Shown here: positions 10,712 to 63,998 of the stretch, one piece after another
How positions within the stretch are numbered: position 1 is the stretch's first letter
How the letters are laid out: every line of letters begins with the position of its first letter
DNA from: Gemmatimonadota bacterium
GTDB lineage: Bacteria; Gemmatimonadota; Gemmatimonadetes; Gemmatimonadales; Gemmatimonadaceae
NCBI GenBank assembly: GCA_028287235.1
Contig: JAQBQB010000016.1
Location: forward strand, 1-64,000
Direction of reading: 5' to 3'
Length of the DNA: 64,000 nucleotides
Made by a program: the position numbers and the translations under genes
The notes under the pieces: generated by a model
Told to the model about the DNA's origin: nothing
What the model saw: only the letters and a program-made list of their open reading frames with translations
Databases searched by the model: none

Positions 10712-11641
10712 ATGGGCGATACTCTATATCAGATTACCGGGCGCCACCGCGCCGAGCCCCTCCCCGAGCGCAAGCCGAGCTGGCTGAAGGTCCGCGCCCC
10801 CGGCGGGCCAAACTATTTGCGGCTCAAGCAGATGATGCGCGAGCTCGACCTGCACACGGTCTGCGAGGAAGCCCACTGCCCCAACGTGGGTGAGTGCTGG
10901 GAGCACGGAACCGCGACCTTCATGATCCTCGGCGACGTCTGCACGCGAAACTGCGCGTACTGCGCCGTGGCGCACGGGCGGCCGCCCAAGTACGACATCG
11001 AGGAGCCCTCGCGCGTCGCCGAGGCGATCGGCGAGATGAACCTCCGCCACGCGGTCATCACCTCCGTTGACCGCGACGATCTTCCCGACTTCGGCGCGTA
11101 CATATTCGCCGAGACCATTCGGCAGATCAAACAGCGCCTTCCGAACTGCTCGGTCGAAGTGCTCGTCCCCGATTTTCAGGGCAACGAAGACTCGATCCGT
11201 GCCGTGCTCGAGGCGGGGCCGGACATCTACAACCACAACACCGAGACGGTGCCGCGGCTCTACAAGCGCTGCCGCCCCGGCGGGCGTTACGAGCGCGTGA
11301 TGCAGATCTTCCGCACCGCGAAACGCATTGCGCCGCACATCCCGACGAAGACGGGCATCATCCTCGGCATGAGCGAGACGCTCGAGGAAGTCGAGCTCGT
11401 GATGCGCGACCTCCGCGCCGTCGACGTCGACATCCTGACGCTCGGCCAGTATCTCCGCCCGTCCGAGTCCCACATTCCGATCGACCGCTACGTCACGCCC
11501 GACGAGTTCCGTCACTTGCGCGACGTCGGCATGGCGATGGGCTTCAAGCACGTCGAGTCCGGACCGCTCGTCCGCTCCAGCTACCACGCCTGGGAACAAG
11601 TCCAGGCGGCCGAACTTCAGGGTGCAGGGTCTCGGGTTTAG
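10712..11641 (+). CDS. lipA: Lipoyl synthase
   Basis: 309 residues, usual length. Radical-SAM enzyme that inserts two sulfurs into protein-bound octanoyl groups. The auxiliary cluster cysteines are C51, C56 and C62 (CEEAHCPNVGEC), the SAM cluster CxxxCxxC is C77, C81, C84 (CTRNCAYC), and the family-ending RSSYHA is present. The final residues (QGAGSRV) are encoded by the G-rich arm of an intergenic repeat that runs into the gene end. It is followed by the E1 gene of pyruvate dehydrogenase, its indirect client. Confidence 0.97.
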   Translation: MGDTLYQITGRHRAEPLPERKPSWLKVRAPGGPNYLRLKQMMRELDLHTVCEEAHCPNVGECWEHGTATFMILGDVCTRNCAYCAVAHGRPPKYDIEEPSRVAEAIGEMNLRHAVITSVDRDDLPDFGAYIFAETIRQIKQRLPNCSVEVLVPDFQGNEDSIRAVLEAGPDIYNHNTETVPRLYKRCRPGGRYERVMQIFRTAKRIAPHIPTKTGIILGMSETLEEVELVMRDLRAVDVDILTLGQYLRPSESHIPIDRYVTPDEFRHLRDVGMAMGFKHVESGPLVRSSYHAWEQVQAAELQGAGSRV

Positions 11642-11687
11642 GGTTTTCAAAATCCTAAACCCTATCCCCCATACCCTATACCCTGTC
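11620..11687 (+). repeat. Heptamer-armed inverted repeat between lipA and pdhA
   Basis: A G-rich arm (11620-11647, overlapping the lipA stop) and a C-rich arm (11653-11687) pair around a short A/T loop; the inner stem is GGGTTTAGG with CCTAAACCC. The C-rich arm is five units of exactly 7 nt (TCCTAAA, CCCTATC and so on) ending 5 nt before the pdhA ATG. No Shine-Dalgarno is present. The same layout recurs before pdhC and mlaF. Confidence 0.8.
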
Positions 11688-13711: not shown

Positions 13712-13874
13712 GACAGGGTCTAGGGTTTGGGGTTTAGGGTATAGGGAAGGTACGTTGCGCCTGCGGCGCGACTTGATGGGAAGGCCCATCAGCATCCCCA
13801 TATCAACGCGGCGCGCCGAAAGCGCGACGCAGACCTTCCCGAAACCCTAAACCCAATACCCTAAAACCCTGGGT
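13712..13874 (+). repeat. Heptamer-armed inverted repeat between pdhB and pdhC
   Basis: A roughly 163-bp imperfect palindrome fills the gap. Left arm G-rich (GGGTCTAGGG, GGTTTAGGGTATAGGGAAGG); right arm its C-rich counterpart ending in ACCCTAA, ACCCAAT, ACCCTAA, AACCCTG, again 7-nt units, only 6 nt before the pdhC ATG. The middle (about 13752-13833) is itself partly self-complementary. No ribosome-binding site is visible. No gene fits in it. Confidence 0.8.
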
Positions 13875-13877
13875 CTA

Positions 13878-15176
13878 ATGGCGACGAAGGTATTCATGGA
13901 GGCGCTCTCTCCGACCATGGAGGAAGGGCGGCTCGTCAAATGGACGAAGAACGAAGGCGACGCCGTGAAGAGCGGCGATCCGATCGCCGAAGTCGAGACG
14001 GACAAGGCGATCATGGAGCTCGTCGCGCGCGGCGACGGTGTGCTGCGCAAGCGGCTGGTCGCCGAGGGTGAGTCGAAGCCGGTGGGCACGCTGATCGGCG
14101 TGATCGCGCCGGCCGACGAGAACATCGACGCGCTCATCGCTGGCGCGGGCGCGCCGGCGGCTGGCGGCGATGCGAAACCGGCGGAGCAATCGCCGGCGAA
14201 GCCGCAGGCCGCCGCCGCGGCACCGGCAGCACCGGCGGCCGCTCAGCCCACGCCTGCGGCGCAGCCCGCGCAGGGCGCACAGCCAGCCCCCGTTGCCGAG
14301 GCAACCGATGGCCAGGTACGCTCGTCGCCGCTCGCGCGGCGGCTGGCCTCCGACCGCGGTCTCGACCTGTCGCAGGTTCGTGGCTCGGGCCCGGGTGGGC
14401 GGATCATCAAGCGCGACGTCGAATCCGCCGTCGCGACACCGAGCGCTGCCGGAGGCGCCGCACGCCCCACGTCCAACGCCCCACGCGCCGGCGACTTCGA
14501 GGACATCTCGCTCACGCAGATCAGGAAGACCATCGCCAAGCGGCTCGCCGAGTCGATCGGTCCGATCCCGACATTCTATCTCACCGCGGAATTCGACCTG
14601 TCGCGCGTCACCGAGATGCGTGCCGCGATGGTCGAGATGGGAGACGAGTTCAAGGTGTCGATCAACGACATCCTGATGAAGGCGGTCGCCACGGCGCTGG
14701 CGCAGCATCCCGAAGTCAACGCGCATTGGCTGGGCGATCGCATCCGACAGCACCATCGCGTGCATCTTGGCATGGCGGTCGCCACGCCGGATGGCTTGAT
14801 CGTGCCGGTGATCTTCGACGCCGATCAGAAGCGGATGAGCGAGATCTCGCGCGAGGCGCGCGAGCTGGCGAAGAAGGCGCGCGAACGGAAGCTCAAGCCG
14901 GACGAGTACACCGGCTCGACGTTCTCGATCTCCAACCTCGGCATGATGGGTATCTCGCAGTTCACCGCGATCATCAATCCGCCCGAGGTCGCGATTCTCG
15001 CGATCGGCGCGTCGGAAGACGTGCTGGTGCCGGACGGCGACGACGGCGTGGAGGTGCGCAAGCGCATTCGCGTCACGATGAGCTGCGATCACCGCGCCGT
15101 GGACGGCGCAGTGGGTGCCGCATTCCTGCAGACGCTGCGGCGGCTGATTGAGAATCCGTTGATGCTGGTATTCTAA
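13878..15176 (+). CDS. pdhC: Dihydrolipoamide acetyltransferase (E2) of pyruvate dehydrogenase
   Basis: 432 residues. One lipoyl domain with the modified lysine K43 (ETDKAIMEL), an Ala/Pro-rich linker (about 92-145), the E1/E3-binding domain (SSPLARRLASDRGLDLS onward, about 150-180), a second short linker, and the catalytic domain ending in the DHRAVDG motif (H405, D409) and LMLVF. It accepts the acetyl group on the lipoyl arm and passes it to CoA, forming the complex core. The second linker (about residues 195-203) is written by a 27-nt repeat found elsewhere in non-coding DNA of this window. Confidence 0.95.
   Translation: MATKVFMEALSPTMEEGRLVKWTKNEGDAVKSGDPIAEVETDKAIMELVARGDGVLRKRLVAEGESKPVGTLIGVIAPADENIDALIAGAGAPAAGGDAKPAEQSPAKPQAAAAAPAAPAAAQPTPAAQPAQGAQPAPVAEATDGQVRSSPLARRLASDRGLDLSQVRGSGPGGRIIKRDVESAVATPSAAGGAARPTSNAPRAGDFEDISLTQIRKTIAKRLAESIGPIPTFYLTAEFDLSRVTEMRAAMVEMGDEFKVSINDILMKAVATALAQHPEVNAHWLGDRIRQHHRVHLGMAVATPDGLIVPVIFDADQKRMSEISREARELAKKARERKLKPDEYTGSTFSISNLGMMGISQFTAIINPPEVAILAIGASEDVLVPDGDDGVEVRKRIRVTMSCDHRAVDGAVGAAFLQTLRRLIENPLMLVF
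14461..14487 (+). repeat. Coding copy of a dispersed C-rich repeat in the E2 linker
   Basis: Twenty-five of these 27 bases match 63084-63110, which lies in the non-coding space between the sigma factor and mlaF. Here the repeat is read in frame as the linker between the E3-binding and catalytic domains of E2. The core word is CGCCCCACG. Confidence 0.75.
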
Positions 15177-15188
15177 AGACCGGCGATT

Positions 15189-15326
15189 GTCATCCTGAGC
15201 GCAGCAGCCTGTCATCCTGAGCGCAGCAGCCCGTCATCCTGAGCGCAGCAGCCTGTCATCCTGAGCGCAGCGAAGGATCGCTTTCCCCGGAAAGCGATCC
15301 TTCGTCGTTTCACTCCTCAGGATGAC
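15189..15326. repeat. Palindromic REP-like element with four 22-bp direct repeats
   Basis: Copies of GTCATCCTGAGCGCAGCAGC begin at 15189, 15211, 15233 and 15255 (22-bp period). The last runs into a 14-bp stem CGAAGGATCGCTTT / AAAGCGATCCTTCG (15271-15304), and an inverted CTCAGGATGAC closes the element. It sits between the convergent pdhC and plug-domain genes and may act as a terminator. The same palindrome occurs at 52720-52793. Confidence 0.85.
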
Positions 15327-16156: not shown

Positions 16157-16318
16157 GCGGTCTACCTTATGGGTCGGTACGAGTTGGGGCAAGAATCATG
16201 GGACGAACCGTGGTAGCGCCCCGGTTCCGATCCCGGATATCTTTCGCCGTTGTACGGCTTCTTCAGGAATCCCGAACGCGCTTTCTTCGCACTCTCGCAC
16301 TCACGCACTCAAGAGTTT

Positions 16319-52714: not shown

Positions 52715-52719
52715 AGTCG

Positions 52720-52793
52720 GTCATCCTGAGGGAGCAACGCGACCGAAGGATCGCTGAACGCGCGAAGCGATCCTTCGCTGCGCTCAGGATGAC
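52720..52793. repeat. REP-like palindrome inside the atp operon
   Basis: Outer arms GTCATCCTGAG / CTCAGGATGAC and an inner 12-bp stem CGAAGGATCGCT / AGCGATCCTTCG. It occupies nearly all of the space between atpA and atpG and shares both arm and stem sequences with 15189-15326. Confidence 0.85.
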
Positions 52794-52809
52794 AACGGTT
52801 GTCGTCATC

Positions 52810-61743: not shown

Positions 61744-62192
61744 GCGGAGGCCGACAATTCGGCGACCATCTCGCGCGCACGCCGCAGCACTTCGCGAGCG
61801 TTCGCGTACGAGATCAACGTTTCCGCTTCGTCGAATTGCGTCCACCGGCAGGCGGTGATGCCTTCGGCGCGCTGGGGTCGGGTGTCCGACGCGGCCGTCT
61901 CCATTAGATAGAAATGACAGACCTTGTGAATGAGCTGGCCGCGGAACTTGAAGAACCAATCGATCGTGTCGATCTCGCCGCGGATCGACAGCCCGACCAC
62001 GCCGGTCTCTTCGGTCACTTCGCGCGCGGCGGCGACGTCGGGCGCCTCGCCGTCCTCGAGGTGCCCTTTGGGAAAACCCCAGTTTTGATAGCTGTCACGG
62101 ATCAGCAGATACAATGGCTGACCGCCTTCGACACGGAACACGACACCGCCCGCCGACCGTTCGTCGCGCGCCGTGCCGCGGTTCCGCGTCAT
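61740..62192 (-). CDS. Nudix hydrolase
   Basis: 150 residues. The Nudix box is GHLEDGEAPDVAAAREVTEE plus TG, with all metal-binding glutamates kept. The opening SAGGVVFRVEGGQPLYLLIRDSYQNWGFPKG matches diadenosine-polyphosphate-type or MutT-like members (core WGFPKG). Substrate unknown. The ATG overlaps the mlaF stop by 4 bp and its stop overlaps the AraC-like start. Confidence 0.92.
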   Translation of the reverse strand: MTRNRGTARDERSAGGVVFRVEGGQPLYLLIRDSYQNWGFPKGHLEDGEAPDVAAAREVTEETGVVGLSIRGEIDTIDWFFKFRGQLIHKVCHFYLMETAASDTRPQRAEGITACRWTQFDEAETLISYANAREVLRRAREMVAELSASA

Positions 62193-62950
62193 GCGGCCTC
62201 GTGCCCCGCGGCTTCCGGCTCGAGCGAAGGACGCCCCTCCACGAACTGCCGCACGATTGGATCGGGGGAATTCCTGATCTCGTCGACCGTTCCCACCTGC
62301 CGCACGCGGCCCTGGTACAGCATCGCGATGCGTGTTCCCACCGTGTAGGCGCTGCGCATGTCGTGGGTGATGACGATGCTCGTCACCCCGAGGCGGTCGC
62401 GCATGCGGACCATGAGCTGGTCGATCACCGCGCTCGTCACCGGGTCGAGACCGGTCGTCGGCTCGTCGTACAGGATGTACTTGGGGCGAAGCGCGATCGC
62501 GCGCGCGATGCCAACGCGCTTGCGCATCCCGCCCGAGAGCTCGGCGGGAAAGCGATTTTCGACGTTCGGCAGGTCGACCAGTTCGAGCGCTTCCCGAACC
62601 CGAGCCTGGATCTCGCTCTCGGTGAGCTCCTGTTGCTTGCGCAGGCCCATCGCCACGTTCTCGCCGATCGTGAACGAGTCGAAGAGCGCGGCGAACTGGA
62701 AGACGTACCCGATGCGCGCGCGGAGCTGATAGAGCTCTCGCCGCGAGAGCTTCGGGACCTCGAAGTCGTCGACGATCACCTGGCCCGAGTCGGGCTCGAG
62801 GAGGCCGACGATGTGCTTGATCGCCACCGATTTCCCTGTTCCCGAATAGCCGATGATGACCATCGTTTCCCCCTCGACCACGTCGAGGGTGAACCCTTCG
62901 AGCACACGTTTGGGGCCGAAAGACTTGTAGACGTCGATGAGGCGAATCAC
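62189..62950 (-). CDS. mlaF: MlaF-type ABC transporter ATPase
   Basis: 253 residues. Walker A GYSGTGKS, signature LSGGMRKRVGIARAIA (the M-R-K-R form is characteristic of MlaF/Ttg2A), Walker B YILYDEPTTGLDP and switch HDMRSAYT. In Mla systems it powers phospholipid traffic between inner and outer membranes with MlaE, MlaD and MlaB; none of these is in the window. Start at GTG 62950 (VIRLIDVYKSFG): the frame upstream is open only because it reads the heptamer array and carries no homology. No ribosome site precedes it. Confidence 0.88.
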   Translation of the reverse strand: MIRLIDVYKSFGPKRVLEGFTLDVVEGETMVIIGYSGTGKSVAIKHIVGLLEPDSGQVIVDDFEVPKLSRRELYQLRARIGYVFQFAALFDSFTIGENVAMGLRKQQELTESEIQARVREALELVDLPNVENRFPAELSGGMRKRVGIARAIALRPKYILYDEPTTGLDPVTSAVIDQLMVRMRDRLGVTSIVITHDMRSAYTVGTRIAMLYQGRVRQVGTVDEIRNSPDPIVRQFVEGRPSLEPEAAGHEAA

Positions 62951-62953
62951 ATG

Positions 62954-62991
62954 CGTGGGGCGTGGGGCGTGGGGCGTGGGGCGTGGGGCGC
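62954..62991 (-). repeat. C-rich heptamer array abutting the mlaF start
   Basis: Five tandem 7-nt units (CGTGGGG on the plus strand; CCCCACG in mlaF sense) ending 4 nt before the mlaF GTG. The plus strand has five G4 runs spaced by 3 nt, so quadruplex formation is possible. Confidence 0.88.
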
Positions 62992-63043
62992 GACAACAGA
63001 AATGTGATCCGCCGGCTGCTGCTAAGCTAGGGCGATCTCGCGA

Positions 63044-63080
63044 CGCAAAAAGGGCCAGCAACTTTGCTGGCCCTTTTGCG
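63044..63080 (-). terminator. Intrinsic terminator of the sigma factor gene
   Basis: Minus strand stem AAAAGGGCCAGCA / TGCTGGCCCTTTTT with an A/G/T loop and T-run. It lies between the two heptamer arms. Confidence 0.88.
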
Positions 63081-63110
63081 CCCCACGCCCCACGCTCAAC
63101 GCCCCACGCG
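63079..63110 (-). repeat. G-rich heptamer arm downstream of the sigma factor
   Basis: On the minus strand it is G-rich (GCGTGGGGCG units) and begins directly after the TAA. It is the inverted partner of 62954-62991, and bases 63084-63110 match 14461-14487 at 25 of 27 positions. Confidence 0.82.
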
Positions 63111-63998
63111 TTAGGCTGCGAAACTACCCAGCGCGCGGCCGACGTCTCCCTCACGGAGGCGCTTGAGCGCCCGATCGCGAAGCTGGCGAACCCGTTCGCG
63201 CGTGACGCCGAGCATGGAGCCGATCTCTTCGAGCGTATGCTCGCGTCCGCCTTCGAGGCCGAAGTAGAGACGCAGCACTTTTGCGTCGCGCGGCGGAAGC
63301 GTGCTCAGCGCTTGCTCGATCTCGTCGGTGAGGAACCGGTTCATGGCTTCCTCTTCCGTGTCGGGCATCTCGTCGGCAACGAAGCGCTCGATGAGCGACC
63401 GGTCGCCTTCGGGATCCATGGGCGCGTCGAGACGAACGTCGCTGGTATTGAGCGCGGCGAGCGACTGGACGACGTCCACCGAGAGACCGGTGAGCTGGGA
63501 CAGCTCTTCGGGGCTCGGCTCACGGTTGAGCTTCTGACGCAGAATTTCGGACGCCTTGATGATTCTCGAGAGGTCGGCCGTACGGTTGAGCGGCACACGA
63601 ACGGTGCGGCCCTGACGGGCGAGCGCGGAGAGAATCGCCTGGCGGATCCACCACACGGCGTAGGAGATGAACTTGACGCCCTGGTCCGGATCGAACTTCC
63701 GGGCGGCAGTGAGCAGACCGACGTTGCCTTCACCGATGAGGTCGATGAGGGGCAGGCCGCGGTTCTGGTACTTTTTCGCGACGGAGATGACGAAGCGGAG
63801 GTTCCGCTTCACCAACTCCTGGAGGGCGTCCTGATCGCCGGCGCGAATTTTCTTCGCGAGGTCGATCTCCTCCGTTCCCTTGAGGAGCGGATAGGTGCTG
63901 ACCTCGTAGAGGTACTGGTCGAGAATATCGCGCTCCGGTTCGTTCGGAGCGATCCCAGCGGGGGCCGCACGACGGCGACGACGCTTGAGTTCAGTCAT
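63111..63998 (-). CDS. Sigma-70 family RNA polymerase sigma factor, primary-like
   Basis: 295 residues. Region 1.2 (ERDILDQYLYEVSTYPLL), region 2 (LRFVISVAKKYQNRG, LIGEGNVGLLTAARKFDP, ISYAVWWIRQAIL), region 3 (REPSPEELSQLTGL) and region 4.2 (HTLEEIGSMLGVTRERVRQL) are complete, the close RpoD pattern. Region 1.1 is missing, and the basic tail before region 1.2 is short (LKRRRRRAA), so it is either a compact housekeeping factor or a group 2 factor. Its -10 preference may be the TATCTT/TATATT boxes seen here. Upstream sequence is cut by the window. Confidence 0.93.
   Translation of the reverse strand: MTELKRRRRRAAPAGIAPNEPERDILDQYLYEVSTYPLLKGTEEIDLAKKIRAGDQDALQELVKRNLRFVISVAKKYQNRGLPLIDLIGEGNVGLLTAARKFDPDQGVKFISYAVWWIRQAILSALARQGRTVRVPLNRTADLSRIIKASEILRQKLNREPSPEELSQLTGLSVDVVQSLAALNTSDVRLDAPMDPEGDRSLIERFVADEMPDTEEEAMNRFLTDEIEQALSTLPPRDAKVLRLYFGLEGGREHTLEEIGSMLGVTRERVRQLRDRALKRLREGDVGRALGSFAA

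Follow-up and report, generated by a model that had tools for sequence, protein, structure and literature searches.

Heptameric G-rich repeats have been described in Xanthomonas (GGGAATC) and Nostoc (GGGGA(C/T)T), where they are located no more than 50 bp from stop codons (in the sense orientation) or start codons (antisense), are rare between divergent genes, vary in copy number and frequently form inverted pairs, 70-75 of them in Xanthomonas; a G-quadruplex (G4) role was raised as a possibility, and three Calothrix heptanucleotides were mentioned (Rehm et al. 2015, PMC4692102). Direct repeats of another heptamer, TAACTGA, are known from the Beggiatoaceae, cyanobacteria and Bacteroidetes (MacGregor 2015, PMC4679880). 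Both papers cite a published suggestion that slippage favors units of 7 nt (PMC4692102, PMC4679880). Rehm et al. make no mention of Gemmatimonadota (PMC4692102), and our literature search on Gemmatimonadota repeats found nothing relevant. Here we analyzed heptamer arrays at the gene edges of such a bacterium, for which the repeats of Xanthomonas and Nostoc are the closest known kind (PMC4692102).

The window, that is, the whole stretch of DNA analyzed, comprises 64,000 nt (positions 1-64,000 of contig JAQBQB010000016.1, assembly GCA_028287235.1) from a Gemmatimonadota bacterium of the Gemmatimonadaceae. Its 5.73-Mb genome (G000, or G0) was compared with the congeners G003, G004 and G005 (G3, G4 and G5). 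On the minus strand of the window, a gene for a sigma-70 family RNA polymerase sigma factor (63111..63998; up to 98% identical in the named loci by which the window was assigned to the Gemmatimonadaceae) precedes a gene for an MlaF-like ABC-transporter ATPase (62189..62950; 176 bits with the NCBIfam MlaF model, below its cut-off). Read on that strand, the gap consists of the sigma stop codon, a G-rich arm, an A-tract/T-tract hairpin, a conserved block and five CCCCACG units up to the GTG of the mlaF-like gene, with the terminator-like hairpin and the conserved block both enclosed between the two heptamer arms. The G-rich arm (63079..63109, minus strand; GCGTGGGGCGTTGAGCGTGGGGCGTGGGGCG in sigma sense) lies directly 3' of the stop codon and was detected by TRF as CGCCCCA x4.4 with 83% matches, one unit having decayed to CGTTGAG. 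The C-rich arm directly before mlaF (62953..62990, minus strand) makes up the leader's final ~35 nt and is perfect, being (CCCCACG)5 in mlaF sense and (GCGTGGG)5.4 on the plus strand, where TRF gave 100% matches. The plus strand, opposite mlaF, carries five runs of GGGG at intervals of 3 nt. Both the arms and these runs had been pointed out in an earlier sequence-only reading of the gap, and both are real.

The mlaF-like ORF starts with the GTG at 62950-62948, in agreement with ATGAT(C/T)CG of the relatives, and the ATG at 62952-62950 that adjoins the array is in another frame, reading ATG TGA. The earlier description of the mlaF side is right about the arms and about the ribosome site, no AGGAG-like sequence being visible before the GTG, and needs correction at the start codon, which is not the adjoining ATG. 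Heptamers just 5' of start codons, a scarcity of canonical ribosome sites and no gene-function pattern are also features of the TAACTGA repeats, which, unlike the arrays here, are not G/C-rich, are common to distant phyla, are almost never inverted and have no G-rich arm after stop codons (PMC4679880). The hairpin after sigma (63047..63077, minus strand; AAAAGGGCCAGCAAAGTTGCTGGCCCTTTTT) has an equivalent in the G003, G004 and G005 gaps and is probably the intrinsic terminator of sigma; it is absent from the output of the automatic scan, probably due to pairing of its T run with its A run. The conserved block upstream of mlaF, CTAGC-N17-ATCACATTTCT (62998..63030, minus strand), has identical spacing in four species. 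It is a probable promoter or operator of mlaF, and the sigma-70 consensus scan called no promoter there. At the mlaF upstream block of G005, an inverted pair, TCACATT...AATGTGA, is a possible operator. A known structured RNA family was rejected since Rfam gave no matches above the gathering score in the window.

The sigma-mlaF gap had been counted as a third element of its type, which is an underestimate, as CCCCACG represents a genome-wide class. The two-unit 14-mer has 97 matches in the 5.73-Mb genome and its reversed control has none; there are 0 matches in five congeners and 0-4 in 142 other Gemmatimonadaceae genomes. Within the window, CGTGGGGCGTGGGG with at most 2 mismatches occurs 11 times against 1.5 expected, a number reached in 0 of 100 shuffles. 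The array census covered 1.63 of the 5.73 Mb of this genome and 0.15-0.3 Mb per congener. Period-7 arrays (score at least 12) numbered 26 in 650 gaps of this genome against 0.1 in Markov-1 random gaps, and the intergenic arrays in 1.23 Mb included 29 of period 7 and 0 to 1 each of periods 5, 6 and 8. Copy number in the CCCCACG arms ranges from about 3 to 14, and unpaired arms are common. Where two arms lie near each other, the G-rich arm comes before the C-rich arm in 16 of 16 pairs (C-G, 0), and the words are never mixed (8 AA, 8 BB, 0 AB); the spacers of eight CCCCACG pairs have no mutual similarity. Period 7, genome-wide dispersal in non-coding DNA and frequent inverted pairs are all shared with the repeats of Xanthomonas and Nostoc, unlike the word itself, which is CGTGGGG here and others in the congeners and does not follow their consensus GGGNATC/GGGGAYT (PMC4692102).

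The CGCCCCA unit also occurs in the coding linker of pdhC/E2 (14456..14489, plus strand), where G004 has its own unit CGCCCAT and G003 has none, the linker length being similar. A C-rich octamer, CGCACTCA x3, occupies a divergent gap (window 16288-16311) just 5' of a start codon, an unusual position for the class. Several heptanucleotide words per genome in short tandem arrays likewise characterize the cyanobacterial STRR, which we take the Calothrix heptanucleotides to be. Long CCCCACG arrays of 14 copies open two contigs of the genome (C1:6-105 and C16:48-144), so that true array lengths may be underestimated. Telomere-like chromosome ends were rejected, as contig ends within arrays seem to fit assembly breaks better.

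The pdh gaps, which the sequence-only reading took to hold the same kind of element, differ from the sigma-mlaF gap in this respect. One contains a compact AGGGTNT inverted element (11619..11684, plus strand), a shortened copy in which the upstream stop codon is supplied in TTTAGGG, and the next contains the full dispersed element (13715..13869, plus strand), which has a nearly fixed length of ~155 bp, with ~32-bp arms on a conserved double-hairpin core. CCCTANA pairs number 53 and are found in this genome only. The arms (e.g. window 13715-13746) have five GGG at a fixed spacing of 7 nt and hypervariable loop positions 5, 12, 14, 19 and 26. At these positions identity within pairs is 0.617 versus 0.651 in shuffled pairs; they are no more alike within than between pairs. 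On these grounds, a recent origin of one arm as a copy of its partner was rejected for this family. One genome contains two kinds of element, the AGGGTNT elements with a shared core and the CCCCACG arms around unrelated, partly native sequence. A further dispersed inverted repeat is present at window 15188-15271 and 52715-52809, with TGTCATCCTGAGCGCAGCAGCC in tandem (x3.8) and an inverted GATCCTTCG...AGGATGACA partner; in the relatives, the gaps of this repeat have heptamer arms in G004 and are nearly empty in G003.

Three of the five congeners share the layout and have words of their own, each nearly private to its species. GGAGAGT of G003 has 66 matches and 1 elsewhere (G001), GCGATGG/GCGTTGG of G004 have 148 with 13 in the genome studied here and 1 in G003, and GGTGGACG of G005, which has period 8, has 104 with 1 in the genome studied here. 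Other Gemmatimonadaceae genera and other Gemmatimonadota have further words (such as AGTTGGA, GTGAGTT, GGGGAGT and GCGGAAT) in an equal layout; the 100 kb sampled of G026, also of the Gemmatimonadaceae, contained no such arrays, and the array density in loci of other phyla is about one fifth (8 versus 38 per Mb). Whereas Xanthomonas and Nostoc have one G4-capable word type per genus, the words here differ between species within one genus, many lack G4 capacity (the mlaF array is capable by sequence, congener units often are not), period 8 occurs too, and orthologous sites are reused (PMC4692102). Both pdh gaps have inverted arms in this genome and in G003, with differing units, and in G004 one has inverted arms and the other a single 8-mer arm. 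With divergent gaps excluded, array-bearing gaps are shared more often than by chance between G0 and G3 (odds ratio 19.5, p=0.009) and between G0 and G4 (odds ratio 23.9, p=0.0006), in small tests with 3 and 5 shared gaps, respectively, and between G4 and G5 (p=0.02); G3-G4, G3-G5 and G0-G5 were not significant. Elements of 48-435 bp lie opposite empty junctions of 0-12 bp in relatives. Period, orientation and position are thus kept with the exact sequence free, as the sequence-only reading had suspected, both in orthologous gaps across species and among units within one genome.

At sigma-mlaF, the leader word is CCCCACG in this genome and CGCCCAA in G004, and in G003 the arrays are absent and the hairpin is kept. 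In G005 (L010, G005:C87) the gap has no heptamers; a 17-bp tandem array, TACGGCGCTGACGTCCT, of about 10 copies lies further upstream, 3' of the terminator and 5' of the conserved block. The leader after the conserved block measures 47 nt here, 45 nt in G004, 50 nt in G003 and 31 nt in G005, with predicted unpaired fractions of 0.64, 0.60, 0.36 and 0.57, respectively. The array on the mlaF side is most likely filler that is tolerated and has little effect, if any; it would only occupy the leader from the conserved block to the start codon with C-rich, weakly structured sequence of normal length.

The strand polarity of the arrays is pronounced. We pooled the arrays at most 12 nt from a gene boundary in this genome, the three congeners and four Gemmatimonadaceae genomes from other genera. 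Of these 69 arrays, 62 follow one rule (p=4e-12), the sense strand being G-rich where a stop codon precedes and C-rich where a start codon follows. The counts are not fully independent, several genomes being pooled and some arrays paired, and the distances carry the errors of a simple gene caller. The same polarity, together with avoidance of divergent gaps, is found in Xanthomonas and Nostoc (PMC4692102). In G0, G3 and G4, inverted ends mark 33-48% of the gaps between convergent genes, 7-9% between co-directional genes and 0-3% between divergent genes (G5 had too few gaps); the expected false rate is 1%, and the usual terminator hairpins of short gaps are among those counted. The polarity rule is kept by 42 of 47 arrays without G3 tracts and by 18 of 22 without even the capacity for a two-tetrad quadruplex, and median array length is 32 nt with and 30 nt without G3 tracts. 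Composition as the sole cause was rejected, since the inward GC skew of gaps free of arrays is only weak (0.02-0.15). The polarity would fit selection that disfavors G-rich sequence in leaders and in coding RNA, as well as C-rich sequence resembling Rho sites downstream of stop codons.

We lean slightly towards the explanation that the arrays at sigma-mlaF are members of a family of short-repeat arms specific to the lineage, the word of which was spread by copying and slippage and is tolerated at gene edges. One word, CCCCACG, would have spread to several dozen gene edges, with relatives owning other words. Replication slippage with period 7 would lengthen and shorten individual arms, which would survive where they are least disturbing, G-rich after stops and C-rich before starts or in coding linkers, so that every gap would read G-arm, spacer, C-arm. 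Where the arms of a gap match, one of them would probably have been copied across to the opposite edge, or the same word captured more than once. It counts against this explanation that slippage by itself accounts neither for a word at dozens of sites nor for matching inverted arms on either side of native sequence, and that the spread has no known enzyme or intermediate, the REP-associated Y1 transposase being absent from this genome. An undescribed copying process may write the genome's own 7- or 8-letter word at gene edges with fixed polarity, with the entire word exchanged between sister species and the sites and architecture retained, similar to the drift of telomere words; we consider this unlikely.

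The reuse of sites between species could equally reflect function. Were structure selected, relatives would be expected to reuse the sites with other words, as they do, and the paired arms would be functional RNA or DNA hairpins that insulate neighboring genes by stopping readthrough, protecting 3' ends or occluding the next start on readthrough RNA. The readthrough RNA of the sigma-mlaF gap is predicted to pair arm to arm (-110.1 kcal/mol, z=-10.6), and the inverted-end gaps are commonest between convergent genes and near background between divergent ones. We nevertheless regard this as rather improbable: many arms have no partner, a transcript starting at the conserved block between the arms would carry one arm only, without the G-rich one, the variable positions of AGGGTNT pairs are unmatched, and G003 lacks the arrays at this gap while retaining the hairpin. 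The arm-arm hairpin is also predicted to beat a quadruplex in the readthrough RNA even with quadruplexes allowed, which weighs against a G4 on the G-rich strand that would tune mlaF transcription or translation. For such a G4 speak the five GGGG runs opposite mlaF, the predicted energy of the G-rich strand alone as RNA (-38.2 kcal/mol with G4 allowed versus -17.5 without) and G4 formation in vitro by oligonucleotides of similar repeats (PMC4692102); with no array in the orthologous G003 gap, we find this quite doubtful. As a general cause, suggested by the sequence-only reading, the quadruplex was rejected, because G4-incapable species and units keep the position, the polarity and a similar length.

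A mobile palindrome of the MITE or REPIN kind with heptamer termini, inserted in one piece, appears equally doubtful. The resemblance to such elements lies in the inverted arms found in gaps, in sites that are clearly empty in relatives and in the AGGGTNT family, with its nearly fixed length and shared internal core, but the CCCCACG arms have no shared core and surround native sequence, conserved at sigma-mlaF, and one-piece insertion was rejected for them on these grounds. Mobilization by a RAYT was likewise rejected, since the Y1 (TnpA-REP) transposase PF01797 has 0 matches in this genome while five control genomes were positive. An assembly artefact or a collapsed or expanded repeat is hardly credible: the assembly stops inside CCCCACG arrays at the beginnings of contigs C1 and C16 and exact copy numbers may be wrong, yet the arrays bridge unique conserved genes at many places, and far from being unique to this assembly, the layout is shared by independent assemblies with different words.

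Intergenic heptameric G-rich repeats of bacteria have hitherto been studied mainly for quadruplex formation. One genus here provides a natural experiment in which the word changes, often to one incapable of G4, and position, polarity, length and inverted pairing stay. The architecture is separable from the sequence, which makes the spread of the words and the polarity of G-rich arms after stops and C-rich arms before starts directly testable.
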